64,000 bases of DNA from Clostridiales bacterium (GTDB taxonomy: Bacteria; Bacillota; Clostridia; Christensenellales; Aristaeellaceae). The stretch covers positions 1-64,000 of the forward strand of contig JAAYLK010000018.1 in assembly GCA_012521895.1 (NCBI GenBank). The letters are read 5' to 3'. Positions within the stretch are counted from its first letter, which is position 1. Every line of letters starts with the position of its first letter. The position numbers were made by a program, and so were the translations under genes. This document shows, one piece after another, positions 4,329-46,129 of this stretch. Below the pieces are notes generated by a model. That model made no database searches. It saw only the letters and a list, made by a program, of their open reading frames with translations, and was not told where the DNA came from.

Positions 4329-4635
4329 AATAGGTAACCTCAATTATGGGGTTGAGAACATCCGGCGAGCCGCCATCCTCAAAGAGAATCTGGTTGACAC
4401 GGATGTTCGGCACAAAGCGCTCAATGGCTTCGGCGGCTGCGCTGGCGTACGCGCTCTTGGCGGCATTGCCCGGCAGGTGCATATAGGTCATGTCGATGCC
4501 GAAGTCCCTATTTAACGGTATTGATCCAGCTGGAGTGTTTAGCACTACCCGGATTAACTCCGCTATCCTTCCTAACCACGACTGGTGTCGCAGGAGCAGC
4601 CTTTGTGGCGTCGTAGCTTCGATTTGAAAACGCAT
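4321..4635 (-). CDS. GpW/gp25-family baseplate protein
   Basis: Start ATG 4635 has GGTGGAGGTG upstream and gives 104 residues. The segment IAELIRVVLNTPAGSIPLNRDFGID (about 24-48, read with the preceding helix) matches the family pattern of T4 gp25/P2 gpW, where the TP-x-GS-x-PL-x-RDFGID core is the most conserved part. The protein joins sheath to baseplate wedge. Its first 43 codons overlap the 3' end of the gpU-like gene in another frame, an unusually long overlap. It ends in TAG. Confidence 0.85.
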   Translation of the reverse strand: MRFQIEATTPQRLLLRHQSWLGRIAELIRVVLNTPAGSIPLNRDFGIDMTYMHLPGNAAKSAYASAAAEAIERFVPNIRVNQILFEDGGSPDVLNPIIEVTYYE

Positions 4636-5320
4636 TCTTGAGCACCTCCACCACATTGTATTTTTTGACTGCGTTGGTCACAGCGTTTACGACCTTGATG
4701 CCCGTTCCGACAACCGTGCCTACCGCCTTGCCCAGCGACTTGGCCTGGGCGACGGTCATCTTGCCGCTGGTCGATGGCTTGGTCGAGGGCTTAGGGCTGA
4801 TGGTCACGGGTTTGGTTGTCGGCGGAATCACCGGCTTACGGCTTTCGCCAGGGGATGGCATAACCGTGACGGCGCTGGCCATCCGGTCAGTAAAGGTCAG
4901 GCGGTTGCTGATCACCGGCATCTGGATGGTGTCGACATACTCCATGATGGTGATTTTCACATCCGCGGACAGCAGCGTGCCGTCCTTGTGCAGGTACTCC
5001 AGCTTGCGCTCGATGTCCGTCACCACCCAGTGGCCGGGGATGGGCATCGTGCCCAGCACAAACTTGACCGCCTCATGGTCCCGCATTAGAGCGCCCAAGC
5101 GGTCCAGCATCTTGGTGGGGTTCACCCCCAGGAAGGCACTGAGCTTGATTTCAAAGCTGATTTTGTCGGCATTGTTGCCGACAAACTCCAGCATGTCCGT
5201 TTGGTTGTGCCTGGTTTGCTCGGCGTATCGGGCGGTGGAGCCCCAGTTGAGGCCACTCACCAGCACGCTTTCGTTCGCCGAAGTGTAGAAGGGAATGCTC
5301 CCCAGGCTGCCGATCATCAT
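4508..5320 (-). CDS. P2 gpU-like tail protein with C-terminal extension
   Basis: Residues 1-135 match the P2 gpU family: MIGSLGSIPFYTS at the start, then ADKISFEIKLSAFLGVNPTKML (spanning about 50-71), a GTMPIPGHWVVTDIERK strand pair and SADVKITIMEYVD. The usual family protein is about 130-160 residues, whereas this one is 270. The extra part is a Pro/Thr/Lys linker (IPPTTKPVTISPKPSTKPS, about 164-183) followed by a helical Ala/Val/Lys region. The start overlaps the gpV stop (ATGA). The extension overlaps the gpW gene at DNA level. Confidence 0.75.
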   Translation of the reverse strand: MMIGSLGSIPFYTSANESVLVSGLNWGSTARYAEQTRHNQTDMLEFVGNNADKISFEIKLSAFLGVNPTKMLDRLGALMRDHEAVKFVLGTMPIPGHWVVTDIERKLEYLHKDGTLLSADVKITIMEYVDTIQMPVISNRLTFTDRMASAVTVMPSPGESRKPVIPPTTKPVTISPKPSTKPSTSGKMTVAQAKSLGKAVGTVVGTGIKVVNAVTNAVKKYNVVEVLKNAFSNRSYDATKAAPATPVVVRKDSGVNPGSAKHSSWINTVK

Positions 5321-21374: not shown

Positions 21375-21629
21375 TTACCAGTCACGGGGGAGGATGGCAA
21401 AGGCACGCCTGCGCTTCCCGCCGTTTAGCAGGGAGGTGAGCTCGTCCACGACGCGCTCTTCCGTCCGGATCTCTTCCATCAGCCGCGGCAGGTCAAAGCG
21501 GGTCAGTGAGCGGTCGTCAATGGTGTAGCTCTGCACCCCGCCTTCCACCAGCGCCAGGTAGGCAGCCTGCAGCTTTTCAAGGGCTGCCTGGTGGAACACC
21601 AGCCGCTGCTGGATTACAGTTTTTATCAT
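21375..21629 (-). CDS. Head-tail joining/gpW-position small protein (84 aa)
   Basis: ATG 21629 is chosen because AAAGGAGG lies seven bases upstream; ATG 21635 is too close to that site. Residues such as ALVEGGVQSYTIDDRSLTRFDLPRLMEEI and LTSLLNGGKRRRAF match the small family (DUF6148-like) found between terminase and portal genes, in the place of lambda gpW. The S(L)TR(F/A)DL motif is diagnostic in my reading. The role is probably head completion or portal-related. Confidence 0.75.
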   Translation of the reverse strand: MIKTVIQQRLVFHQAALEKLQAAYLALVEGGVQSYTIDDRSLTRFDLPRLMEEIRTEERVVDELTSLLNGGKRRRAFAILPRDW

Positions 21630-21641
21630 GCGCATCCTCCT

Positions 21642-23585
21642 TTACCAGTTGTCATAGAACTTGGACAGCCCCTTCTTGGACTTGGCCTTGACCGGCATCT
21701 GCGGCCGCGCTTGCTGGGCTGTCTGGGGTGCCGCCGCCTCCCCGGTCTTGCGGCTCCTGGCAGCCTTGATGTCCCGGCTGATCCTGTCCAGGTCCAGGTC
21801 AAGCGCCTGGAAGGCAGCGTTGGCGTAGTTGCGGCAGTCCAGGTTTTCGTTGCGCTCATGCCCGGGGATTTTCTGCCACTGCCAGGGGTTCTTTTTCCCT
21901 GCATGATACACCAGGCGTTCAGACAGCAGGCCATGGAAAAAGTCCTTGCCATAGCCTTTGTCATCGTCCAGGGGGAAGTGACAATACTTCGGTCCGGGTG
22001 TCATCACTCGCAAGTTGTCGTAGATTTTCAGCTTGCCGGCGTCAACGCCCAACATGTACTGCCAAGCTGTGCCGAGATATCGCCCATCCACGGTGATTTT
22101 GACCTTCCTGGGCGGGGCAGTATAGGGCACGCTCTGGCCACCGCTGGAGCCTTTGATGGCGAACACCTTCTTGTTGAAGCGGGCACGGCAGGCCATTCTC
22201 ACCTCTTGGGTGAAGTGACCGCCCTCGTCCACAAAGGTGGTGGACACCTTCAGCCCGTGGCCCTCCTTGAAGCGGTACACCCGGTCAATCACGCCGTCCA
22301 GGCGCTGCCATACCTCCGGGCTGTCAGGTCTGCCCATGAGCACGCCGGTCTGGATGCCCCAGGTTTCACCGAAGTGGCCATAGCCCACAATCTCGTATTG
22401 CAGGCGGTCGTCCTGGGTGTCCACGCCACAGGTCAGCGCCACCACGCCATCGGGCAGATCAGCGGGGTATTCTTCCCGCCTGCCCATGTAAGCGTCCTCG
22501 TCTTCCAGGTCGCCGCGGTCTTCCCACAACTCGCCAAAGCGGGTGTTGAACACGACCTGCAAGCGCTTGGAGCTGCCCAGGGCGTTCAGGTATTCCTCAA
22601 CGATGGTCGCCCAGCTTTCCCATGGACTGACAAAAGCGTTCAGCCAGAAGGAGCGGCAGCCCCGCTCGTAGGCAGCCGGGTTTTCTGCAATCCACTTCCC
22701 GCTGTTACGCGCTTTCAGCTTGACCGCCTTTTCATCGGATATTCCACCACAGTGGGGGCAGATGTAGCGCACGGAGGTAGCTTTGTAGCTGCGGTAGCCG
22801 CGGACCACGCTCTCTTCCTTGTCAAAGCGGATGTCCGAGAACTTGATGTCGTTGTACTCGTTGCAGTGGGGGCAGGGAACGCACCAGCGCTCCATCGTGC
22901 CCTCGGCGAAGGATTTCTCAATCGCCGATGCGTTCTTGATGGTGGGGGTGGACACTTCCACGGCCTTGCGGTTGTAGAAGGTTATCTGACGGGCCCTGGC
23001 TAGTGCCCAGGGGTCGCCTTCCTGGCCAGCCGACTGCGCCCAGCGGTCACGCTCGTCACCAATGATGATTCGGATGGGCTTGGAGGCCAGGGCGTGCGCT
23101 TCGGTAGACCCGCACAGGGTCAGGATGCCGCCAGGGAAGTTCTTCTGCAAAATCGTGTTTCCGCTGTCCCGGCTCTTGGGGTCTGCCACCTTGGCCGACA
23201 GCACCGGGGTGTCCCGCACCATGGGGGCGATGCGCAGCTTAGAAAACTCCTTGGCGTCCACATTGGTGGGGTGTATGAACAGGATGCTTCCCGGGTCCTG
23301 GTCGACGATGTAGCCGATGATGTTCAGCTCCAGCTCCGATTTACCAACCTGGGAGGCAGCAACCATCACGATGCGGTGCACCTTGGGGTCGTTAAAAGAA
23401 TCCATGGGTTCCTTGAGATAGGGCGTCCGGGAGGTACGCCAGGGGCCGGGCTCAGCGCTGGCTTCAGAGGACAGCCTGCGCTTTGCGTCCGCCCACTCAC
23501 TCACCGTCAGGTCCTCGGGGGGCTGGAAGCCTGCCACGGACTTGCCGATGACAGAGGTCAGCCGGGTCAGGCTAGTCTTCTTCAT
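21642..23585 (-). CDS. Terminase large subunit (GpA family)
   Basis: ATG 23585 (647 residues) is preferred; it overlaps the TerS end by 14 bases, and a longer frame to 23630 lies inside terS. The ATPase motif is MVAASQVGKSE (74-84). ILFIHPTN, then KPIRIIIGDERDRW (Walker B region) follow. Two CPHC knuckles make a zinc ribbon in the middle. The nuclease part begins about GVDTQDDRLQYEIVGYG, where the Asp residues bind metal. GpA packs DNA into the prohead and cuts cos-type ends. It is the canonical partner of the Nu1-like TerS upstream. Confidence 0.95.
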   Translation of the reverse strand: MKKTSLTRLTSVIGKSVAGFQPPEDLTVSEWADAKRRLSSEASAEPGPWRTSRTPYLKEPMDSFNDPKVHRIVMVAASQVGKSELELNIIGYIVDQDPGSILFIHPTNVDAKEFSKLRIAPMVRDTPVLSAKVADPKSRDSGNTILQKNFPGGILTLCGSTEAHALASKPIRIIIGDERDRWAQSAGQEGDPWALARARQITFYNRKAVEVSTPTIKNASAIEKSFAEGTMERWCVPCPHCNEYNDIKFSDIRFDKEESVVRGYRSYKATSVRYICPHCGGISDEKAVKLKARNSGKWIAENPAAYERGCRSFWLNAFVSPWESWATIVEEYLNALGSSKRLQVVFNTRFGELWEDRGDLEDEDAYMGRREEYPADLPDGVVALTCGVDTQDDRLQYEIVGYGHFGETWGIQTGVLMGRPDSPEVWQRLDGVIDRVYRFKEGHGLKVSTTFVDEGGHFTQEVRMACRARFNKKVFAIKGSSGGQSVPYTAPPRKVKITVDGRYLGTAWQYMLGVDAGKLKIYDNLRVMTPGPKYCHFPLDDDKGYGKDFFHGLLSERLVYHAGKKNPWQWQKIPGHERNENLDCRNYANAAFQALDLDLDRISRDIKAARSRKTGEAAAPQTAQQARPQMPVKAKSKKGLSKFYDNW

Positions 23586-24189
23586 CGTCCAGGGCTTCCC
23601 AGGACTGGCGTTTGCGCACAAGCTCCTCATACCGCTTGGGGTCGTACTCGTAATTCGCCAGTTCCTCCATCACCTTGTTGACCTCGGTACGGATGATGAT
23701 GGCGGCCTGCGCGGCGTCCTCAGCATGGGACACCTCCACCGCCAGCCGGCCGGGCAGCGCCACCAGCATGTTTCGGATAGCGAACACCAGGTCTTCGGTG
23801 ATGGCCAGCACATCCTCTGATCGGTGCATTTTGCCCTTGAGCTCGTTGGCCTCCATGATGGCGATGGCCGCCTTGGCCTGTTTGAGCTGCATCTCTGCCT
23901 TGCTCTTGTCCGTTTCGACTTTGACGACTTCGCTGTCCGTCTTCTTACTCCGGGCCTCCAGCATGTCGCAGTAATACTTGATGTTGGTGCGCAGGTCATA
24001 GAGGCTACCATACTCGGTCGCTTCCTTGTTCAGGATGCCCTGGGCGGTCAGCTGCCCAATCCATTGGTTACTCTTGCCCGTCATGGCGCACAGGTCAGCG
24101 GTTTTGACATAGATGGGCTTCCCTGCTTGGAGTACATAGGTTGCGCCCTCTACAGGCGTGGCCTTGCTTGTCTTGGCCTTGCCTGCCAT
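23572..24189 (-). CDS. Terminase small subunit (Nu1-like)
   Basis: ATG 24189 has AAAGGCGGTG upstream; an ATG at 24207 has no site. The N-terminal half contains a winged-helix-type segment (KPIYVKTADLCAMTGKSNQWIGQLTAQGIL) and EYGSLYDLRTNIKYY. A Lys/Glu-rich coiled coil and a C-terminal interaction region follow. This is the Nu1 layout: DNA binding at cos and contact with GpA. It begins the late packaging-head operon, after a 390-base region without a clear gene. Stop codon is TAG. Confidence 0.88.
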   Translation of the reverse strand: MAGKAKTSKATPVEGATYVLQAGKPIYVKTADLCAMTGKSNQWIGQLTAQGILNKEATEYGSLYDLRTNIKYYCDMLEARSKKTDSEVVKVETDKSKAEMQLKQAKAAIAIMEANELKGKMHRSEDVLAITEDLVFAIRNMLVALPGRLAVEVSHAEDAAQAAIIIRTEVNKVMEELANYEYDPKRYEELVRKRQSWEALDDEED

Positions 24190-24582
24190 ATCGTCACCGC
24201 CTTTCAATCAATCCGGGCTGACAGCCTAAGCCATCAGCCCAATGCACGCCGGCCCCTCCTACCATAATTGACGTGCTGCCTTCCTCGAGGTCTCTATGCT
24301 CGCCGTTCTTTCAATCCTGCCCACGGTTTTTAATCGGCAGGTATCAGCAAATGGTCGCTCCCAGGCGCCTTCCGCAGCGCTTTTTGCGCTCCTTCCGGCG
24401 CTTCCGTAGTCCTTTTTGTGGTTCCATTGGGTTTTCCCATTAAACCTGACCGATTTTTTGCCCGGTAACTGCGCACGAACCGGGGTCGCAGGCGAACCCG
24501 CATGCCCCCTGGGGGGTGCCACAGTACCTTTTCGCCTGGAGGGTACGCCTCCCGGCCCTGCTGATGCGGGGGAGGTGAAATA
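24190..24582. other. About 390 bases without a confident gene; candidate cos/packaging region
   Basis: No frame here combines a ribosome site with a convincing product. A 36-codon minus frame (24330-24440, MGKPNGTTKRTTEAPEGAQ..) looks protein-like but lacks a good site; two longer frames are GC-driven. The stretch has several short inverted repeats (CGCAGCGC...GCGCTCC; CCCCCTGGGGGG at 24502-24513). In lambda-type phages the packaging site lies just before the small terminase gene, so this is the natural place for cos. That is inference from position. Confidence 0.45.
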
Positions 24583-24708: not shown

Positions 24709-24972
24709 TTACATGCGAAGGATGCCTCGCTCAAGGTTCTTCACTTCAGCTGTCAGCTGCTTTACGCGGATGTATTCCTTCTCTGTCACGATGTAAGGAC
24801 TCATCCTATCTGATTGATGCGCGTATACCGTGGCCTTTCGCTCGTTCTCGTTCCACACCTCCACGCGCCTGCCTTTACATAGGGCTGCGCTGGCCTTGCG
24901 TGCTGATGATGTTACCATCAGGACGGTGCGCTTTGCGCAATCGCAGATAACGAAGGTGTTGTACTTAGCCAT
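24709..24972 (-). CDS. Small phage protein (87 aa), unknown
   Basis: ATG 24972 overlaps the end of the methyltransferase gene; an ATG at 24978 is also in frame. The protein starts MAKYNTFVICDCAKRTVLMVTSSARKASAAL and has a basic middle (KGRRVEVWNENERKATVY) and a C-terminal helix (KEYIRVKQLTAEVKNLERGIL). Short strand-helix-basic layout could bind nucleic acid, but no family is recognized. It shares an operon with the methyltransferase and is followed by a terminator. Confidence 0.65.
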   Translation of the reverse strand: MAKYNTFVICDCAKRTVLMVTSSARKASAALCKGRRVEVWNENERKATVYAHQSDRMSPYIVTEKEYIRVKQLTAEVKNLERGILRM

Positions 24973-26242
24973 TGGCATGCACCGCGCTTTCCCCGGTTAA
25001 TGTTTCCCATCTGCGTATGATGACGTCGCAGTATTTAGGATCCAGTTCCATCATGAAGCATGTCCGGTCCATCTGCTCAGCCGCGATGATCGCTGTGCCT
25101 GATCCGCCGAAAGGATCGACGATGATGTCTCCTGGCTTGCTGGAGTTCTTGATCGCCTCTCCCCACAGTTCAATCGGTTTCATGGTCGGATGCTCAGGGC
25201 TTGAGCGCGGGCGTTTGAACTCCCATACATCGTTAAGGTTTCTCTCGCCGTTGAATGAGGATGTCCTGCCTTCTTTCCATCCGTACCACAATGGTTCATA
25301 GCGCCTGTGATAGTTACTTCGACCAAGAACAAAGGCGTCTTTGACCCAGACGATGGTTCCGCTCCAATGGTAGCCGTTAGCGCGCATGGCCTTATCGAGC
25401 GTTGGCCACTCTCTTGTCCCGAGGCAACAGTACATGTCGCCCTGCAGCCTGGGGGAAACCGCCGATACAAATGCGTCCAGAAAGGCAGCAAAGTTATCGG
25501 CGCTCATGTTGTCGTTCATTATCCCCTCGCGTTGCCTGCATAAGGGATTTGATTTGCCTCCGATCGCCACATTCCATGGGGGATCTGTGACGCACATTAT
25601 CGCTGTTTTACCAGAAAACAAAGCATCAATGTCTGATGGCTTTGTGCTGTCCCCGCACATCAAGCGGTGGCGTCCAAGCTCCCATATATCGCCAGGTTTG
25701 ACAATCGGTGCTGTGATTTCCTCGATTGCCACGCTGACGTCAAAGCCATCGTCGGCCACCTCTGTCTCCTGGCGCGTTGGTTGATTACCGCTCTGCTCGT
25801 GTGCACATCTGTTCGCCGGATCGTTGGTATTGATTTGCTGAAGCACCATCGCGCCGTTGGCGATCAGGCTTTCCAGCATTCCGTCGTCAAATCCCGGAAT
25901 ATCCAGGTCGTCCTTGAGGCTTCCTATCAATTCGTCAATGGCGTCCAGATCGTCCATGCCAAGTGAAAAGATTCGGTTGTCAGCCAGCATCAGCTTTTTC
26001 TTCTCGTTGTCTGACAGCTCACTCACGACATAGCAGTCCGCTGTGTCATGGCCCAGGGCCAGCAGGGTGTCATACAAACCGTTTCCTGCCAGGATGGTAT
26101 GCTGCTCGTCCACCACGATAGGGCGGATCTGTCCGAACATTTCAACAGAGCGTTTGAACTCAGCGATCTGCTCCGGTGTGTGCATGCGCACGTTGCGCTG
26201 TGGACGCTTGAGTTGGTCAAGCGGCAGCTGCGTGATCTTCAT
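24965..26242 (-). CDS. ParB-like domain plus beta-class DNA methyltransferase
   Basis: Residues 1-100 form a ParB/Srx-type domain (LDQLKRPQRNVRMHTPEQ, FGQIRPIVVDEQHTILAGNG). Residues 185-425 form an N4/N6-type DNA methyltransferase with DPPW (220-223) placed before the SAM motif FGGSGT (about 378-383), the order of beta-class enzymes. The linker HPTMKPIELWGEAIKNSSKPGDIIVDPF is classical. No restriction endonuclease is adjacent, so this is an orphan phage methylase, likely for protection of phage DNA or for regulation. The start overlaps the small hydrophobic gene by ATGA. Confidence 0.92.
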   Translation of the reverse strand: MKITQLPLDQLKRPQRNVRMHTPEQIAEFKRSVEMFGQIRPIVVDEQHTILAGNGLYDTLLALGHDTADCYVVSELSDNEKKKLMLADNRIFSLGMDDLDAIDELIGSLKDDLDIPGFDDGMLESLIANGAMVLQQINTNDPANRCAHEQSGNQPTRQETEVADDGFDVSVAIEEITAPIVKPGDIWELGRHRLMCGDSTKPSDIDALFSGKTAIMCVTDPPWNVAIGGKSNPLCRQREGIMNDNMSADNFAAFLDAFVSAVSPRLQGDMYCCLGTREWPTLDKAMRANGYHWSGTIVWVKDAFVLGRSNYHRRYEPLWYGWKEGRTSSFNGERNLNDVWEFKRPRSSPEHPTMKPIELWGEAIKNSSKPGDIIVDPFGGSGTAIIAAEQMDRTCFMMELDPKYCDVIIRRWETLTGESAVHANG

Positions 26243-27512: not shown

Positions 27513-27923
27513 CTATTCGGCGTGGCCGATCTTCACGATGATGCGGGGGCGGTCGGAGTAGAACTTCTGCACGGTGCAGTCCACGATCTGGGTGTCGTCC
27601 CAGTAGGCCAGCTTGTTCAGCGCGTCGCTGACGACCTTGCCCACATTGTCCCAGTCGGGCTTTTTCATGGGCCGGATCTCGCCCTTAGCCATGGCGGCCC
27701 GCTTGGCCTTGGATGCGGAGGCCGGAATCAGGTACTCGGCCCGGACTTCCATGCGCAGGGGCTGCTTGTCATCAAAGCGGTGGTCGTGACACTGGCGGCG
27801 GTACTCGGTCTTGATCAGGTTCTCGTAGAGGACAGTGGCCTGGGGAGTATAGGTGCCAAAGCGGGTCACCCGCTGGCGGGCCTTGCCCACCGGCTCACCC
27901 AGGACGGTGAAGGTGATGGTCAT
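27513..27923 (-). CDS. rusA: RusA-family Holliday junction resolvase
   Basis: The 136-residue protein starts MTITFTVLGEPVGKARQRVTRFG and carries the RusA active-site region KPDWDNVGKVVSDALNKLAYWDDTQIVD, with the Asp residues (DWDN and DD) that bind metal. RusA cuts four-way junctions formed during phage recombination or replication, before packaging. The gene overlaps the preceding 51-residue zinc protein by ATGA. Length is normal for the family. Confidence 0.92.
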   Translation of the reverse strand: MTITFTVLGEPVGKARQRVTRFGTYTPQATVLYENLIKTEYRRQCHDHRFDDKQPLRMEVRAEYLIPASASKAKRAAMAKGEIRPMKKPDWDNVGKVVSDALNKLAYWDDTQIVDCTVQKFYSDRPRIIVKIGHAE

Positions 27924-29336: not shown

Positions 29337-29769
29337 TCTTGACCTCCTTTTGATCAGCCCGTTCCTTGAAATAGGCGGCGGCTTCCTTGATGGCTTCTTC
29401 CTTGGTGACGCCGGGCTTGAGGCCGGTCATCCACCAGGGCGGCAGCGGGGTCTCGCTGTCCTGGTTGCGCCAGAGGTGCAGGCAGTTGGGATGGTTGTTG
29501 ACATAATCTTCCTCCCGGGGGTGGTACTGGATGACTGTTTCCTCCGGGTGAAAGAACATGCGCTTGACCTCAGCCATCTCTTCCCAGGTTGGGATGCGAT
29601 TCTTGAAGCTCACGCTCACATGGTCCCAACCGCCGCCCCAGGAAAAGATGACGGCGGCAGGCTGCGCCTTCTTGGTGCTGGCTAGCTCAGCCCAGGCTCG
29701 CCCGCCATCGGGGGCAAGGTCCAGGATCATCAGCCTGGGTTGAAGTTTGATTTGTTCAATGGTTTTCAT
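29320..29769 (-). CDS. Conserved phage protein with WGGGWDHVSVS motif (149 aa)
   Basis: ATG 29769 follows AGGAGGCG; an upstream ATG (29853) is inside the previous gene. The middle segment (FSWGGGWDHVSVSFKNRIPTWEEM), then KRMFFHPEETVIQYHPREEDYVNNHPNCLHLWR, is a well-conserved block in many Firmicutes phages, with W/H/P residues that look catalytic or metal-binding. I associate it with a DUF7694-like family; function is unknown. Confidence 0.75.
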   Translation of the reverse strand: MKTIEQIKLQPRLMILDLAPDGGRAWAELASTKKAQPAAVIFSWGGGWDHVSVSFKNRIPTWEEMAEVKRMFFHPEETVIQYHPREEDYVNNHPNCLHLWRNQDSETPLPPWWMTGLKPGVTKEEAIKEAAAYFKERADQKEVKNGNPR

Positions 29770-30008
29770 GCTTGCGCCTCCTTCCTGGCTTTCAGTTGCT
29801 CCCGATGCGATTGGTTCAGCGTTTGAATCCAGCCGGTGATGGTCTTGAGGCATTCAGCCTCGTACACGGTGTTGTCCCTGGGGAAGAAAGCGAAGCCGCG
29901 CCAGGACGTCCTTGGGGTGAATGGCATAGACTTTTGTCTTGCGTGGCTTGAGCGGATACACTGCCGCAGGGTAATCCACTTTCCGGGCATCAATACAGGT
30001 TCGGTCAT
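29766..30008 (-). CDS. Small phage protein (80 aa), reading frame possibly disrupted
   Basis: The start overlaps the methyltransferase stop and the stop overlaps the next gene's ATG, so the boundaries look natural. The C-terminal half (FFPRDNTVYEAECLKTITGWIQTLNQS) is protein-like. The middle (residues 8-35, rich in Ser, Arg, Pro, Cys) reads poorly. A different frame over the same bases gives IDARKVDYPAAVY followed by KTKVYAIHPKDVLA, which looks more natural. Two compensating single-base indels would join the good parts. It may be a decaying gene, a sequence error, or simply an odd protein. Confidence 0.5.
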   Translation of the reverse strand: MTEPVLMPGKWITLRQCIRSSHARQKSMPFTPRTSWRGFAFFPRDNTVYEAECLKTITGWIQTLNQSHREQLKARKEAQA

Positions 30009-31585
30009 GCTCCGGCCTCCAATCTCAGCATCTGGCTGGCATCGGTCAGGAAGTAGTCCGGCCGGGCCAGGACGCGGTTGTAGCTTTCCTCGCCCTCAAA
30101 GCTGTCAATGACCGCCTTTTCCTCGGCGTCCAGGTCCTTGTAGCGCTTCTTGCCATAGGAGGGCGGCAGCCAGTTTTTGCCCCGGGCAGCGAACAGATTG
30201 AACTTCTGAATCACATCCATGTCGGTGAACTTGATATGGCAGGTGCCCTTCTTGTACAGGGTGACCTCGAAGTATTTGCAGGGGATGTTGCGGTTCTGGC
30301 CTTCGTTGTCCACGGCATCCTGAACGACCTCCCCAGCGTGGCGCAGGCTTGTGGTCAGACCGCCGTCCAGGTAGTCAAACACCTTCTCGATATCCGACAG
30401 CTTCTGGCCTGTCTGGAAGTTCAGGCGGAAGCCGCCCTTGCCATTCCAGCGGTCTTCCAGGCCGTACATGGGTATGATGACCTTCTTGTTGACAGCGAAG
30501 GCGTCATTGGTGCGCCAGCCGTTGAAGTAGTGCCGGTTCTGGCTGTTTTCATCCCAGTGGTACTTGCGCGTCCAGTCATCAAAGAGGTCCATGATGGTCT
30601 TTTCGATACCGCCGATGACCTCTTTGCTCAGCTCGTGCTGGAGGGTGAGGATGTTGTAGGCGCTGAACTCGTAATCCCGCAGCTCGCTCAAGCGCCGGTG
30701 CAGGTCGGATTGCAGGTTGCTGGTCAGCTGCTTAACGAATTCCGGCTGGCTGAACAGGGCTTCCCAGTACTTGTAGCGCACCTGCTCAACAAAGCGGTTG
30801 ACGCTGGCGCTGTTATGCTTCTCTCCGTGGATGTTTAGCTCAAGGATGCTCTGCGAATAGGCGTCCTTTTTCAGGCTGCTTTGCAGCAGCTTCCTCATGC
30901 CTTGCCATTCCCGGATCAGTTTGACGCCGCAGGCCAGCTCGTAGTTGTAGTGGTCAACAATGGCTTCCCGCCAGTCCCCCTTGATGATGTGCCCCATATC
31001 GTCCCGCTCCACTTCGCGGATCGGCGTGGCCTTGCGCAAATCGGCCATTAGGTCACTGGTGCTTTCCTGATATTCGATGGTCGCTTTGACCATGTACACG
31101 CGCACCCGGGCGCTTCGTTCGGCCTGCTCAAAGGCATAGCCCAGGTCGGTGATGCTGTGCTCATCGGCGCTATCCAGGGCCTTGAGCAGCTCCTTGCGGG
31201 CGAAGGTGTAGGGGTTCTCAATGGTCTCTGCGTTCAACAGGCAGACCACCTGGCCGCCGCGGCGAATCATCCGCAGGGCCTTCAGCAGGTGGCGGTCGCC
31301 CTCAAAGAAGGGCGGGTTCATCAAAATGAGGTCGTATTGCTTGTGTGTCTCATAGGTCAGAAAGTCATCGTGCACCACCCGGAAGCCCTTGCCCTTGAGG
31401 ATGTGGCACAGGTTTTCATCCAACTCCACACAGTCAATTTGCCCTCGGGCGCGGTCGTTTCCGCCGTAGGAACGGCCGGACAGGCGGGTCACCACCGCCT
31501 TTGCCAGGTCGCCCTTGCCAGCGGAGGGCTCCAGAACATCCTGGATCAACGTCCAGTCGATGCCTTCCAGCATCTTGGCCGCCAC
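30005..31585 (-). CDS. DNA methyltransferase, DUF4942 type, with amber codon upstream of the apparent start
   Basis: The uninterrupted frame begins at GTG 31585 without a ribosome site and gives 526 residues. SAM motif EPSAGKG (19-25) and catalytic NPPF (90-93) define an N6-adenine-type methyltransferase. The remainder (about 200-526, with WRTNDAFAVNKKVIIPMYGL and KYFEVTLYKKGTCHIKF) matches the DUF4942 C-terminal domain. Upstream, the same frame runs from ATG 31654, which overlaps the parB stop, through an in-frame TAG at 31621-31619, and then GFYPTPAQV, the motif that normally begins this family. The gene is therefore probably interrupted by a nonsense codon. Confidence 0.8.
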   Translation of the reverse strand: MAAKMLEGIDWTLIQDVLEPSAGKGDLAKAVVTRLSGRSYGGNDRARGQIDCVELDENLCHILKGKGFRVVHDDFLTYETHKQYDLILMNPPFFEGDRHLLKALRMIRRGGQVVCLLNAETIENPYTFARKELLKALDSADEHSITDLGYAFEQAERSARVRVYMVKATIEYQESTSDLMADLRKATPIREVERDDMGHIIKGDWREAIVDHYNYELACGVKLIREWQGMRKLLQSSLKKDAYSQSILELNIHGEKHNSASVNRFVEQVRYKYWEALFSQPEFVKQLTSNLQSDLHRRLSELRDYEFSAYNILTLQHELSKEVIGGIEKTIMDLFDDWTRKYHWDENSQNRHYFNGWRTNDAFAVNKKVIIPMYGLEDRWNGKGGFRLNFQTGQKLSDIEKVFDYLDGGLTTSLRHAGEVVQDAVDNEGQNRNIPCKYFEVTLYKKGTCHIKFTDMDVIQKFNLFAARGKNWLPPSYGKKRYKDLDAEEKAVIDSFEGEESYNRVLARPDYFLTDASQMLRLEAGA

Positions 31586-31646
31586 CTGGGCGGGAGTGGG
31601 GTAGAAGCCCCGCTCCGCCTAGCGGCTCTCGGTCAAGGAGAGCGCA

Positions 31647-33062
31647 TCAGTCATCGGCAGCGTCCTCCTCATTGTCCTCATCGTCTTCCTCGTCCGGCTC
31701 GTTGGCCTGCTGCTCCTTACCAGGCTGGAAGGCGGGGTGTTCGCCGCTCATGAGCAGCTGCTCCTCGTCACTGATCTGATAACCCAGCAATTCAAGGAAG
31801 TCATAGAGGCGGTTGAGCTTTTCGTTATCGCTGAAAAGCGGGAAGCGGTCCGTGCGCCAGGAGGTATCAAAGTAACCAGCGCCCTTGCTGTCCCAGGATG
31901 TGGCATAGGCCAGGAACAGAAGCGCCTTATCCGGGTCAGTGGCCAGCAGCTTCGTGAAGGCTTCCTTGCGTGCTTCGTCTTGTTCTTGCCACTTCAAATC
32001 CCGGGGGACGCCCAGGATGTTTCCAAGAGCGCCTGAATCCACACTCCGGCCCATGCCCAGCGAGGACATCAGGAAGTGCAGAGCGTCTGGGATGCTCTTC
32101 TTTTTGAGGTTGTGCCCCTGGATGAAGGCCAGGCGGAGTTGATAGGCGGCGATGGAGCTTTCTTCCAGGGCTTGCTCCATGTTCTCGACCTGCAGCTCCA
32201 GCTCGCTCTTTTCCTTGTCCTCTTTCTGCTCGCCCTCAGCACGCTGGCGTCTGAGCGTGAAGTTGCCGGATTCCAGGGTGTAGCCATAGGTCTCTGTTTG
32301 CGCATCCCCGGGAATCGTGAACGCCTGGGGGTCCTCAGCGAAGGAGTGCCAGCCCATGTATTCCCATTTCCGGCTGTTGTTTTCTTCGCTCGGGATCTGC
32401 TGAGCGAAGCTGTTCATCAACTCAATCCACAAGGGCTTGTTCAGCTTGCGTTGCTGCTCGGCCAGGGCCTGGTTCAGCGCATACTCAAAGTTGTTGGTGC
32501 CGATAGTCGCCAGGACCTTGTTCCTGGCCTTCTCGTCCGTCAGCTGCTCCAGCTTGATTAGGTCCATCAAGGTGGCACCCTGGGTCAGCTTGTCTTCCAG
32601 GGTCTGGCGGTCCAGTTCCCGCAGCTTCAAGCGGCGGCGCACAGTAGATTCAGAGAAGCCGGATTCCTGAACAACCTCGTCCAGGGTCACGCCCAGGTCG
32701 AGCATCATCTGGAAGCCGTCTGCCTGCTCCAGGGGCGTGAGGTCGGAACGCTGCATGTTTTCCATGAGCATGGTCTTGACCTGCTCAGCGGGGGTCATCA
32801 TGGTGACAACACAGGGCACCTCGGTCAGCCCGGCCTGCTTCGCCGCTGCCAGGCGGCGGTGGCCAATGATGACCTTGTAATCTCCGGTGGGTTGGCCTGT
32901 GACCTCGCCCAGCCAGGGCACGACAGTCAGGTTTTGCAGCACGCCGTTTTCTCGGATGCTGTCAGCCAGTTCCGTCAGGTCGCCCAGGTCGCGCCTGGGG
33001 TTTTGCGGGTGCGCCTTGAGTTCGGCGACGGGGAGCATCTGAATGGTCTTGGTGGTTTCCAT
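31647..33062 (-). CDS. ParB/RepB-like nuclease-domain protein
   Basis: ATG 33062 follows AAGGAGACC and gives 471 residues. Residues 1-110 form a ParB-type domain: LPVAELKAHPQNPRRDLGDLTE, SIRENGVLQNLTVVPW, then VIIGHRRLAAAKQAGLTEVPC and EQVKTMLMENMQRSDLTPLEQADGF. A helix-turn-helix segment (LDEVVQESGFSESTVRRRLKL) follows. The long C-terminal part is acidic at its end (DEEDDEDNEED). In phages these proteins pair with orphan methyltransferases; partition of an integrated phage is unlikely. The function may be DNA modification or regulation. Confidence 0.82.
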   Translation of the reverse strand: METTKTIQMLPVAELKAHPQNPRRDLGDLTELADSIRENGVLQNLTVVPWLGEVTGQPTGDYKVIIGHRRLAAAKQAGLTEVPCVVTMMTPAEQVKTMLMENMQRSDLTPLEQADGFQMMLDLGVTLDEVVQESGFSESTVRRRLKLRELDRQTLEDKLTQGATLMDLIKLEQLTDEKARNKVLATIGTNNFEYALNQALAEQQRKLNKPLWIELMNSFAQQIPSEENNSRKWEYMGWHSFAEDPQAFTIPGDAQTETYGYTLESGNFTLRRQRAEGEQKEDKEKSELELQVENMEQALEESSIAAYQLRLAFIQGHNLKKKSIPDALHFLMSSLGMGRSVDSGALGNILGVPRDLKWQEQDEARKEAFTKLLATDPDKALLFLAYATSWDSKGAGYFDTSWRTDRFPLFSDNEKLNRLYDFLELLGYQISDEEQLLMSGEHPAFQPGKEQQANEPDEEDDEDNEEDAADD

Positions 33063-33108
33063 GGTTTGGGTCTCCTTCGTTTTTATTACAAGCCCCCTGG
33101 GCTTGATA

Positions 33109-33777
33109 TCAATCGGGTTCCGGAAGGCCGAGCGGCTCTTCCTCATCAGCTGCCTGAAGCAGCTGGACAGAGGGGTGCTGCCGTTCCCAGCGTTCCTGGT
33201 ATTGCTCCTCCAGGCGGAGGATCAGCTTCTCGCTGCCATCGGCATAGTGCTGGCGGGCGTTGTTCAGCCTGACCTGGAGCTTGCCGGGCAGCCCGGCGTG
33301 TTCTCTGATGCGGGTCCGGATGGCCTCGTAGGCCTGGGTGAAGGCCACCCGGTCCAGGCCCACCTTGTTGCTGCGGCCCTGGGCGGCCGCCCGGCTCAGC
33401 TCGACCAGCTGGTCGTAACCCACGGTGTCTACCGCCTGGGCAATGGGTCCGGGCAGGTGTTCTGCAGTAGGCCCGTACAGGCGCTCGTGCATGCCCATCA
33501 GCTTGGTTACAGCCCGCCAGGCTTCATCCACCGGGAGCAGCCCGGGCTGCTGGATGTCCGCCATGATGTCGCGGAGCTCCGCAATACTGGGCGGCCACTT
33601 GCTGGTGGCGATGTGCTTTTCCAGCGCCAGCTGCACCAGGCGAAAGTCATCATCGGCAAACATCTGGCTCCAAAGCGCTACTGTGCTGCGGATGTGGTCC
33701 TGGTCCTTGAAGCGGTCGTAGCTGGGATAGGCAACAACCAACAGCCCCACCAGCTTGGTAACCTCAGCGGTTGTCAT
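33109..33777 (-). CDS. Replicative helicase loader/inhibitor-like protein (222 aa)
   Basis: ATG 33777 follows CTGGAGGAGA and starts inside the replisome-organizer 3' end; an upstream start (33846) lies wholly in that gene. MTTAEVTKLVGLLVVAYPSYDRF, then TVALWSQMFADDDFRLVQLALEKHIATSKWPPSIAELRD, is the helical pattern of the G39P/DnaI N-terminal family (YP....W...L.D......A......PP.IAE). These proteins load or hold DnaB at the phage origin. Following the organizer directly is the normal context. Confidence 0.75.
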   Translation of the reverse strand: MTTAEVTKLVGLLVVAYPSYDRFKDQDHIRSTVALWSQMFADDDFRLVQLALEKHIATSKWPPSIAELRDIMADIQQPGLLPVDEAWRAVTKLMGMHERLYGPTAEHLPGPIAQAVDTVGYDQLVELSRAAAQGRSNKVGLDRVAFTQAYEAIRTRIREHAGLPGKLQVRLNNARQHYADGSEKLILRLEEQYQERWERQHPSVQLLQAADEEEPLGLPEPD

Positions 33778-36907: not shown

Positions 36908-37270
36908 CTAACTCCTTTCGTTGGTGCAGATCCTGACGACCTGCTGGCATAACCGGACATCGAACATGCCAATGTGCGTCTGTTTCTCGGGGATGCCCAG
37001 CTTTTGGGCCAGCCAGGCATAGGCGGCGTTCCGCTTCATGCGGCCCCCTTGCCAGAGGGGGTCAAAGGCAGCGTGCGCCTTTTTCTTCCAGTCCCGGAGC
37101 TCGGCGTTAGCCAGGCGCCCCAGAGGCTTGTCGGTTCCCCGGTGCACGCCAACCCAGGCGTGGCACGGGGGGCAGTAGTAGATCATCCCGTAGCTGCGGC
37201 CGTAGACCACAGCACTGTCGGTGTACAGGGCAGGCTGGCCGCAGTAGTCGCAGAGCTTGGTGATGCTCAT
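36908..37270 (-). CDS. Zinc-finger protein, DUF3268 type (120 aa)
   Basis: CDYCGQPA (7-14) and CPPCHAWVGVHRGTDKPLGRLANAELRDWKKKAHAAFDPLWQGGRMKRNAAYAWLAQKLGI cover nearly the whole family pattern: a CxxC pair, second CPPC pair, a GVH.GT..PLG.LA..ELR..RK.AH...DPLW core and a C-terminal MFDV...C. The family is common on phages and conjugative elements; role unproven, probably nucleic-acid related. Confidence 0.85.
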   Translation of the reverse strand: MSITKLCDYCGQPALYTDSAVVYGRSYGMIYYCPPCHAWVGVHRGTDKPLGRLANAELRDWKKKAHAAFDPLWQGGRMKRNAAYAWLAQKLGIPEKQTHIGMFDVRLCQQVVRICTNERS

Positions 37271-43911: not shown

Positions 43912-44514
43912 ATGAGCCATGCTCTCAATGCCCGCTTATGGGCGAACATAGATGACAAGCGTTCCGGTTCAGCGTTGGTCGCAGAAATGACACCATTGAG
44001 CCTGGACAGTCAGGCTGCGCAGGCTTCGTTTGCAGGCAGCTCAGAGATGTACTGGGCTGATCTTGAGAAATGCACCTGCATGGACTTCAACATAAATCAG
44101 TCAAGGTCGGCGCCCTGCAAACACATGATTCGGTTGGCTATGGAGCTGGGCCTGCTGCCATCTGCTGGCATTGTAAGAGATATTGATGCCGCGCAGTATC
44201 GGGTTGCCCTGGCCAAGCTAAAGAGCATGACTTCCGAGGGTGACCTGCTGGCCGCTGTGAAGATTGGCGCTTTCCTCAAAGAGTTGTACACCAAGGGCAA
44301 GTCCCGGGTTGCTGATACCAGGGGCGTGGACGATACCCCGCTGCGCTTTTTCTTTGTGCTGGCCGGGAACTCAGCCGCGCCAATCAAGACGCGAAAGAAG
44401 GATGCGCTGGCGCTGGTCAAGGCCATTGAAGCCCGCCTAGGTGAGTGGCTGCTTGTTACTCCACAGGCTTTGCTGGCGGCGTTCGAGGGCTATGAGCAAA
44501 CGGACGCAGCCTGA
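43912..44514 (+). CDS. SWIM-type zinc-finger protein (200 aa)
   Basis: The segment CTCMDFNINQSRSAPCKHMIRLA (around residues 55-77) has CxC followed after 14 residues by CxH, the SWIM zinc-finger pattern. The remainder is helical, with TRKKDALALVKAIEARLGEWLL near the end. SWIM fingers bind DNA or protein. The gene overlaps the recombinase start by 23 bases and is probably co-transcribed with it. A role in recombination, lysogeny control or defence is possible; none is proven. Confidence 0.72.
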   Translation: MSHALNARLWANIDDKRSGSALVAEMTPLSLDSQAAQASFAGSSEMYWADLEKCTCMDFNINQSRSAPCKHMIRLAMELGLLPSAGIVRDIDAAQYRVALAKLKSMTSEGDLLAAVKIGAFLKELYTKGKSRVADTRGVDDTPLRFFFVLAGNSAAPIKTRKKDALALVKAIEARLGEWLLVTPQALLAAFEGYEQTDAA

Positions 44515-46129
44515 CAACACTGCCAAATCAGCAGTCATATACGCCCGCTTTTCCGAGGGCCGGGACCAGACGGATGTCAGCATTGAGCAGCAGGTGGCCG
44601 AGTGCAAGCCCTATGCTGCCCAGCTGGGCTATACCATCACCAAGGTGTATGCCGATCATCACATCTCCGGCCGATCAGACCGAAGGCCGGAGTTTCAACG
44701 CATGCTGCGGGATGCCGAGAAGGGGCAGATTGACACGGTCATCGCCTGGAAGAGCAGCCGCCTGGCCAGAAATATGCTGCAGGGCCTGCTCAACGAATCC
44801 AAGCTCAATGACCTGGGGGTGAATGTTCTCTACGCCAAAGAGGACTTTGGCGACAACGCCGCAGGCCGTTATGCCAGGCGCAACATGATGAACATGAACC
44901 AATTCTACTCGGAGAATATGTCCGAGGATATCAAGCGGGGCATGTACTACCTGGCGAAGGATTGTAAGGTGCTCACCGTCATTCCATTCGGCTATCGCAA
45001 GGGCGAGGATGGCCGCTTTGCCAAGGACGACTACACGGCGCCCTATGTCCAGGAAATCTTTGAGCGGGTGCTGCGCGGCGACACCTATGCGGAAATTGCC
45101 GAGGACCTGAACGCCGAGCATGTCAAGACGCAGCAGAAAAAGCCCTGGAACAAGAACAGCTTCAAAATCATGTTGCAGAATGAGGCCTACATCGGCGTAT
45201 ACTCTTTTGGGGATGTACGCATAGAAGGCGGCATGCCTGCCCTGATTGACCGGGATCTCTTTTACAATGTCCAGAAGGAGCTCAAGATGCGCAGCACAAA
45301 GAAGGCCACCAACCGCTGGCAAAAGTCCGACTTCCTGCTCACCGGGAAGCTGTTCTGTGGCCACTGCCTGGGGAACATGGTCGGCAGCTCCGGCACTTCC
45401 GTCACCGGGGCCAAGCACGCCTATTATGTCTGCCAGACTAGGAACAACGTCAAGACCTGCCATAAGAAGAACATCCGGCAGAAGGCGGCAGAGCGCCTGG
45501 TGGCCAGCGCCATTCGCAATTACATTCTGCAGCCGGAGGTCATTGAGTGGATTGCCGACAATGCCATGCAGTACACCGTGTCCCTGCGTGAGCAGAGCCA
45601 GGCGAAGCAGACAGAGGCGGAGCTGGCGGATGTGAACCGCGGCATCAAGAACATCATGGCCGCCATTGAGAAGGGCATCATCACCGATACCACCAAGGAC
45701 AGGCTGCTGGAGCTGGAAGCCATGAAGCGTGAGCTCACCGAGCGGCTCGACCTGGAGGCCCGGTTCATCCCTTCAATCACCAGGGAGCAGGTCATCGCCT
45801 GGCTGGACAGCTACCGCACCCGCAAGCTGACGGACCGCAGTTTCCAGCGTGAGCTGTTCGGCACCTTCCTGGAGGCGGCCTATCTCTACGATGATCGGCT
45901 CCGGCTGATCTTCAACTACACCGGTGAAACCAACGAGGTAGATTATCCCTTGAGCGACCTGCTTCCGGACGGGGATTCCCCGCCCGATAGTTCTGATACA
46001 GTTAATTTAGGGCCACCACACCCGGAACAGTTTGTTCCGGGTTTTTTCTGCTTGAAGCGTTTGAACGTGCATTCTTATCATGCTATACTTCGCGTAGCGT
46101 TTCTGCGACAAATACAAGAGGTGAGGTAA
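44492..46129 (+). CDS. Large serine recombinase (phage integrase)
   Basis: ATG 44492 gives up to 545 residues. The resolvase catalytic domain begins VIYARFSEGRDQTDVSIEQQ, with Ser21 as nucleophile, followed by DHHISGRSDRRPEFQRMLRDAEKGQIDTVIAWKSSRLARN. The recombinase domain includes VIPFGYRKGEDGRF and NSFKIMLQNEAYIGVY. A zinc ribbon (CGHC, later CQTRNNVKTC) and a coiled coil follow. The last 36 codons run over a perfect terminator hairpin and the first bases of the next promoter, so the normal C-terminus may have been replaced by the attachment junction. Confidence 0.92.
   Translation: MSKRTQPDNTAKSAVIYARFSEGRDQTDVSIEQQVAECKPYAAQLGYTITKVYADHHISGRSDRRPEFQRMLRDAEKGQIDTVIAWKSSRLARNMLQGLLNESKLNDLGVNVLYAKEDFGDNAAGRYARRNMMNMNQFYSENMSEDIKRGMYYLAKDCKVLTVIPFGYRKGEDGRFAKDDYTAPYVQEIFERVLRGDTYAEIAEDLNAEHVKTQQKKPWNKNSFKIMLQNEAYIGVYSFGDVRIEGGMPALIDRDLFYNVQKELKMRSTKKATNRWQKSDFLLTGKLFCGHCLGNMVGSSGTSVTGAKHAYYVCQTRNNVKTCHKKNIRQKAAERLVASAIRNYILQPEVIEWIADNAMQYTVSLREQSQAKQTEAELADVNRGIKNIMAAIEKGIITDTTKDRLLELEAMKRELTERLDLEARFIPSITREQVIAWLDSYRTRKLTDRSFQRELFGTFLEAAYLYDDRLRLIFNYTGETNEVDYPLSDLLPDGDSPPDSSDTVNLGPPHPEQFVPGFFCLKRLNVHSYHAILRVAFLRQIQEVR
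46021..46047 (+). terminator. Rho-independent terminator inside the recombinase frame
   Basis: CCCGGAACA (46021-46029) and TGTTCCGGG (46033-46041) form a perfect 9-bp stem with a three-base loop, followed by six T. It ends plus-strand transcription just before the host operon. The recombinase frame stays open through it, which is unusual. Confidence 0.9.
46061..46089 (+). promoter_or_regulatory. Promoter for the isomerase-oxidoreductase operon
   Basis: TTGAAC (46061-46066), a 17-base spacer and TATACT (46084-46089) lie 46 bases before ATG 46135. The site is close to the prophage end, so the host operon keeps its own promoter. Confidence 0.72.

Follow-up and report, generated by a model that had tools for sequence, protein, structure and literature searches.

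An amber codon near the start of a prophage DUF4942 methyltransferase gene: probably an ordinary nonsense change or a sequence error rather than special decoding

What should one make of an amber codon that stands behind the first eleven codons of an otherwise complete phage gene? The question is raised by a methyltransferase gene of the DUF4942 family, carried on the minus strand of a prophage in a Clostridiales bacterium (family Aristaeellaceae, assembly GCA_012521895.1) and contained in the first 64,000 nucleotides of contig JAAYLK010000018.1, the stretch of DNA that we call the window. A first-pass annotation had left two options, namely a gene broken by one nonsense base or a TAG that is read through in this context; the evidence gathered here supports the former well and speaks against the latter. 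The enzyme is probably off in the lysogen through an ordinary nonsense change or a sequence error, and not through special decoding. Our preferred explanation, to which we would give a probability of roughly 0.6, is that one nonsense substitution of recent date switched the methyltransferase off while leaving the gene sound in all other respects.

Translated from ATG 31654, the frame reads MTDALSLTESR, meets TAG at 31621-31619 and goes on as AERGFYPTPAQV, which begins with AERGFYPTP, in agreement with the earlier reading of eleven codons, a stop and then GFYPTP; after the TAG the same frame stays open until TGA 30007-30005. ATG 31654 overlaps, as had been stated, the end of a ParB-like gene (31647), with which it shares 8 bases, and is preceded by a good ribosome site (Table 1). 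The leader of the window gene comprises 16 residues ahead of the F of FYPTP, and because many relatives have a leader of identical length, ATG 31654 is, on sequence grounds, very probably the natural start. Since, in addition, a complete and conserved methyltransferase continues the frame in which the TAG lies, the interrupted frame is more than a chance occurrence. Direct reading of the sequence found no in-frame start codon between TAG and FYPTP. The next starts downstream of the TAG are GTG 31585 and ATG 31573, both lacking FYPTP and a good ribosome site; for the GTG, which opens an uninterrupted open reading frame (ORF) of 526 amino acids, the earlier description as a start with neither ribosome site nor GFYPTP holds, the sequence upstream of it being a C-rich stretch.

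The identification as a DUF4942 methyltransferase was borne out by Pfam, where DUF4942 (PF13708) matched with 126 bits against a cut-off of 25 (E = 1.9e-36) and MTS scored slightly below its cut-off (21.4 vs 23). The best PHROG match was family 32703 (unknown function, 4.2e-39) and the second family 6263 (DNA methyltransferase, 2.9e-24). EPSAGKGDL and NPPF, both found in the window protein and conserved across relatives, represent the S-adenosylmethionine motif I and the catalytic motif, respectively. FYPTP is conserved as well: in our alignment A2, P21 is invariant, F17, P19 and T20 are nearly so, and Y18 is present in 25 of 29 relatives, and the stretch pairs with motif X of type I M subunits. 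When a fold model was built on the protein read through the TAG (mean predicted local distance difference test score, pLDDT, 78), its matches among solved structures were M.TaqI, followed by CamA and M.BseCI, all N6-adenine methyltransferases whose fold resembles that of the N-terminal domain; for M.TaqI (entry 2np6) the Z-score was 18.4, with 2.2 Å over 161 residues. These matches span about residues 6-197, mainly 12-195, and so barely reach into the DUF4942 half. T20 of the model lies opposite Thr23 of M.TaqI, the alignment with entry 2jg3 beginning at these two residues, and the modelled catalytic domain of the read-through sequence is thus of the TaqI type with motif X equivalently placed. 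The best explanation is that the prophage gene encodes a TaqI-like DNA methyltransferase, of predicted N6-adenine specificity, in which DUF4942 forms the C-terminal domain.

DUF4942 methyltransferases of other phages resemble it over 97-100% of the 526-residue query (42.8% identity in Bacillus phage SPR, 38.5% in Faecalibacterium phage Lelie), and relatives and window gene have in common FYPTP, EPSAGKGDL, NPPF and the C-terminal DUF4942 part; among titles and abstract openings mentioning DUF4942, no publication on its function was evident. The window copy differs from these relatives in the TAG ahead of motif X, which is absent in all that were checked (the N-termini of SPR and Lelie fell outside the check), and which leaves motif X and the rest of the enzyme without a start codon in their shared open frame. 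The gene descends from the DUF4942 methyltransferase family but is interrupted.

Could translation simply restart at GTG 31585 or ATG 31573 and yield a shorter functional protein? The frame is indeed open for 526 codons. Against this, the product would lack motif X, which 84 of the 87 relatives examined retain, and the GTG has no ribosome site. In M.TaqI the catalytic Asn105 is positioned by Thr23, a motif X residue; in the related rRNA adenine methyltransferase RlmJ mutagenesis shows motif X residues to be essential (PMC3814359). Because FYPTP aligns with motif X and the ORF from the GTG begins only after it, this form should be inactive, and we regard a functional restart as very improbable.

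We examined 106 loci from viral contigs (one scan of which supplied the best 80 of at least 474 confirmed loci), genome contigs, family genomes and order genomes; 103 of them aligned at E 1e-10 or better (not L022, L023 and L069), and 87 were non-redundant, at 25-52% identity to the window protein. In 84 of the 87, an uninterrupted frame holds an FYPTP-type motif and has a start ahead of it, in a few cases by 25 codons or more. Of the three exceptions, L084 has the variant FFPTAP, L134 is a fragment with its N-terminus outside the locus, and L068 is a distant enzyme that carries NFTP. A single alignment covered the full length in 80 of the 87, and stops within the alignment occurred only in L127 and L148, near query residue 500, where we read them as natural ends. 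None of the 87 shares the TAG at its position in the window, and none starts at the GTG without GFYPTP, the case that had been named as one that would overturn the earlier interpretation; a further 193 phage records lay outside this check of N-termini. There was no near-identical copy of the gene in its own genome, in 11 genomes of the genus, in 308 of the family or in 396 of the order drawn from a larger group, nor in a phage collection searched with 23 kb of the prophage, nor in viral contigs scanned for the motif with a degenerate pattern. In all these searches the closest relative was about 52% identical.

The remainder of the gene, judged by its sequence, is not visibly decayed. The window copy departs from the consensus at 2 of 71 near-invariant columns, within a range of 0 to 5 over 30 aligned proteins, and the codon-usage (coding) score is high directly after the TAG and across the following 100 codons. 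This leaves an interruption that is young, erroneous or tolerated. An error, whether of base calling, of assembly or through a mixture of strains, would mean that the true gene is uninterrupted; the host draft, in 126 contigs and with no second copy of the gene able to confirm the base, would allow for it, as would a remainder that is open and undecayed. On general reasoning, one wrong substitution that happens to land on a stop is an event of small probability, and we consider an error clearly less likely than a real substitution, though it deserves to be taken seriously.

Is the TAG decoded as an amino acid? Phages that have recoded TAG exist (PMC11210395), and they resemble the present case in having TAG inside a phage gene; unlike them, the window phage ends other ORFs with TAG. 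Among 40 phage ORFs picked by hand for a count of stop codons, TAG was the terminal stop of four, terS, a tail protein, RusA and a PHROG-1934 protein (Table 1). The earlier assertion that terS and gpW both end in TAG was correct for terS, whereas the gpW-like adaptor ends in TAA. RF1 is present in the genome and scores above its cut-off. No CUA anticodon was found among 38 tRNAs in a draft that is 97.7% complete and whose contig leaves off the left end of the prophage; the window has no tRNA, and the remainder of the contig has one tRNA-Pro. PylS scored 25.1 bits, below the curated cut-off of 178. A suppressor elsewhere, whether in the missing part of the draft or at the absent left end, is unlikely. 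Reassignment of TAG by phage or host was rejected on account of the TAG stops, RF1, the missing CUA tRNA and the PylS score, and appears to us barely credible. A scan of the minus strand (bases 1-46200) for stops with coding sequence on either side flagged six sites, all of them places where a listed ORF ends and a further gene follows, and thus no second in-frame TAG; the scan was too insensitive to say much on other cases, as it overlooked TAG 31621-31619 itself because the short leader scores low.

A subtler proposal is that the TAG is partly read through, perhaps with the aid of a hairpin, and acts as an attenuator that holds the methyltransferase low in the lysogen. FYPTP is still coded past the stop, and a GC-rich hairpin follows directly 3' of it. 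Over 36 nucleotides, counted from the TAG, the folding energy is -20.1 kcal/mol, which none of 200 shuffles equalled (z-score -3.7), which only 0.28% of 14,088 stretches of this length on the minus strand matched, and which is beyond the best value among 28 genuine stops (-15.3). When the 12 residues (36 nucleotides) after the stop were redrawn by codon usage, 3% of 2000 draws were as good. Moreover, in-frame stops with a ratio of nonsynonymous to synonymous changes (dN/dS) below 1 have been reported, with the mobilome over-represented (PMC7918605). Longer folds, in contrast, are ordinary, 25 of 200 shuffles being as good at 42 nucleotides (z-score -1.2) and 27 of 200 at 95 nucleotides (z-score -1.0). 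We applied the codon-usage test, with 600 draws each, to 20 relatives of at least 45% identity, none with the stop. Six of them (L083, L075, L074, L020, L090 and L086) gave 0 to 1.8%, more extreme than the window; L078 gave 4.3% and the remaining 13 relatives at least 14%. Because relatives free of the stop carry hairpins at least as unusual, the hairpin is not tied to the TAG.

How far the structure is shared is a separate matter. When the structure of L074 was superimposed on seven aligned sequences (six relatives and the window), 76.6% of cells were paired vs 75.2% after shuffling (reached by 108 of 500 shuffles), and slid versions of the structure gave 44-61%. Changes on both sides occurred in 2 of 11 L074 pairs, which 17 of 500 shuffles reach, as do two slid versions and a third, so that the shared-pairing signal over this structure is weak. 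The window hairpin pairs in a register different from that of L074, and pairing among the relatives differs in part. Nor are stop and structure conserved jointly among relatives, the closest being about 52% identical. We rejected the hairpin as a conserved readthrough element linked to the stop, as relatives without the stop carry comparable hairpins; it thus follows from the coding of GFYPTP and its neighbours in part of the DUF4942 family, with no signalling role specific to the TAG. Readthrough is further opposed by the absence of the TAG from every checked relative, by the normal use of TAG as a stop in the phage, and by the lack of a suppressor tRNA among those found and of a PylS above cut-off, and the suggestion that the TAG is read through in its context has no positive support; we rate it as improbable. 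A variant in which a pre-existing structure of the family became coupled to a new stop, to make a leaky attenuator with a small readthrough fraction, seems more doubtful still.

Independent of any stop, the opening methyltransferase codons of some relatives form a strong hairpin in the RNA, beyond what codon usage would lead one to expect. There it may be a translational control element or perhaps have a role of its own.

The nonsense substitution remains the reading that we prefer. With ATG 31654 as the proper start, a nonsense change at codon 12 would end translation after 11 residues, and the soundness of the rest of the gene would make the change young. Restart products from GTG 31585 or ATG 31573 should be scarce and inactive, because both starts lie past motif X and neither has a good ribosome site; the allele would be null or near-null, with at most a trace of enzyme through ordinary leaky termination. 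We infer, then, that the base is real, the mutation recent and the enzyme inactive. Three observations weigh against this. A stable hairpin directly follows the TAG; with no near-identical prophage found, there is nothing by which to confirm the TAG base or to put an age on it; and an undecayed remainder fits a sequence error, or a gene used via readthrough, equally well.

Stops of this kind have precedents. Belinky et al. 2021 (PMC7918605) describe single in-frame stops in otherwise coding bacterial genes, like that of the window gene, and such stops tend to be short-lived; their focus was on stops with an orthologous stop in a second genome, of which there is none for the window gene. In this respect the finding is ordinary, in-frame stops of such kind having already been described.

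Table 1. Positions in the window of the features discussed.
Feature	Position	Strand	Basis or remark
DUF4942 adenine-type DNA methyltransferase gene, TAG at codon 12	30005..31654	-	frame, Pfam, PHROG, fold
In-frame TAG	31619..31621	-	sequence; absent from checked relatives
Ribosome site AGGAGG, nine bases 5' of ATG 31654	31664..31669	-	sequence
FYPTP codons (motif X)	31592..31606	-	conservation, type I M subunit alignment, M.TaqI structural alignment
Uninterrupted ORF from GTG, 526 amino acids, without motif X or ribosome site	30005..31585	-	ORF list, sequence
GC-rich hairpin directly 3' of stop, -20.1 kcal/mol over 36 nucleotides	31589..31619	-	folding
ParB-like gene, end overlaps ATG 31654	31647..33146	-	ORF list, Pfam, PHROG
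Second phage methyltransferase, uninterrupted, N6_N4_Mtase with N-terminal ParB-like part	24965..26242	-	Pfam N6_N4_Mtase 2.2e-22, ParB_N below cut-off; PHROG 498, 620
terS, PHROG terminase small subunit	23572-24207		stop TAG
Tail protein	4508-5320		stop TAG
RusA	27513-27923		stop TAG
PHROG-1934 protein	36908-37270		stop TAG
gpW-like head-tail adaptor, PHROG 118	21375-21635		stop TAA
Small gene next after the methyltransferase	29766-30008		
Large serine recombinase (PHROG integrase)	44441-46129		

The prophage surroundings add some observations of their own. A ParB-like gene adjoins a DUF4942 methyltransferase also in L011/L091, L103, L012/L099, L015 and L101; its position is upstream in some of these, directly so in L011/L091 and L103, and downstream in the rest. 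Relatives of the ParB-like protein reach up to 44% in family genomes, and none was confirmed in the scan of viral contigs. In the small gene that comes next after the methyltransferase, a different frame has the better coding score over some 60 bases, which could reflect compensating frameshifts or noise; one piece of it had no phage match, the ORF gave chance-level matches only (best E 1), and no PHROG family was found. The contig begins inside the prophage, and the large serine recombinase, beside apparently host genes that we take to be tig, clpP, clpX and lon, likely marks its right edge.

What the finding means depends on the base. Were readthrough true after all, the locus would add a minor new example of a phage gene attenuated by a stop codon. 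An annotation that starts at the GTG would label as a full methyltransferase a protein of 526 amino acids without motif X. If the base is real, the lysogen carries a phage whose DUF4942 methyltransferase is off and whose second methyltransferase gene is uninterrupted; this second enzyme may make loss of the first cheap, and the case would be one of ordinary prophage gene loss.

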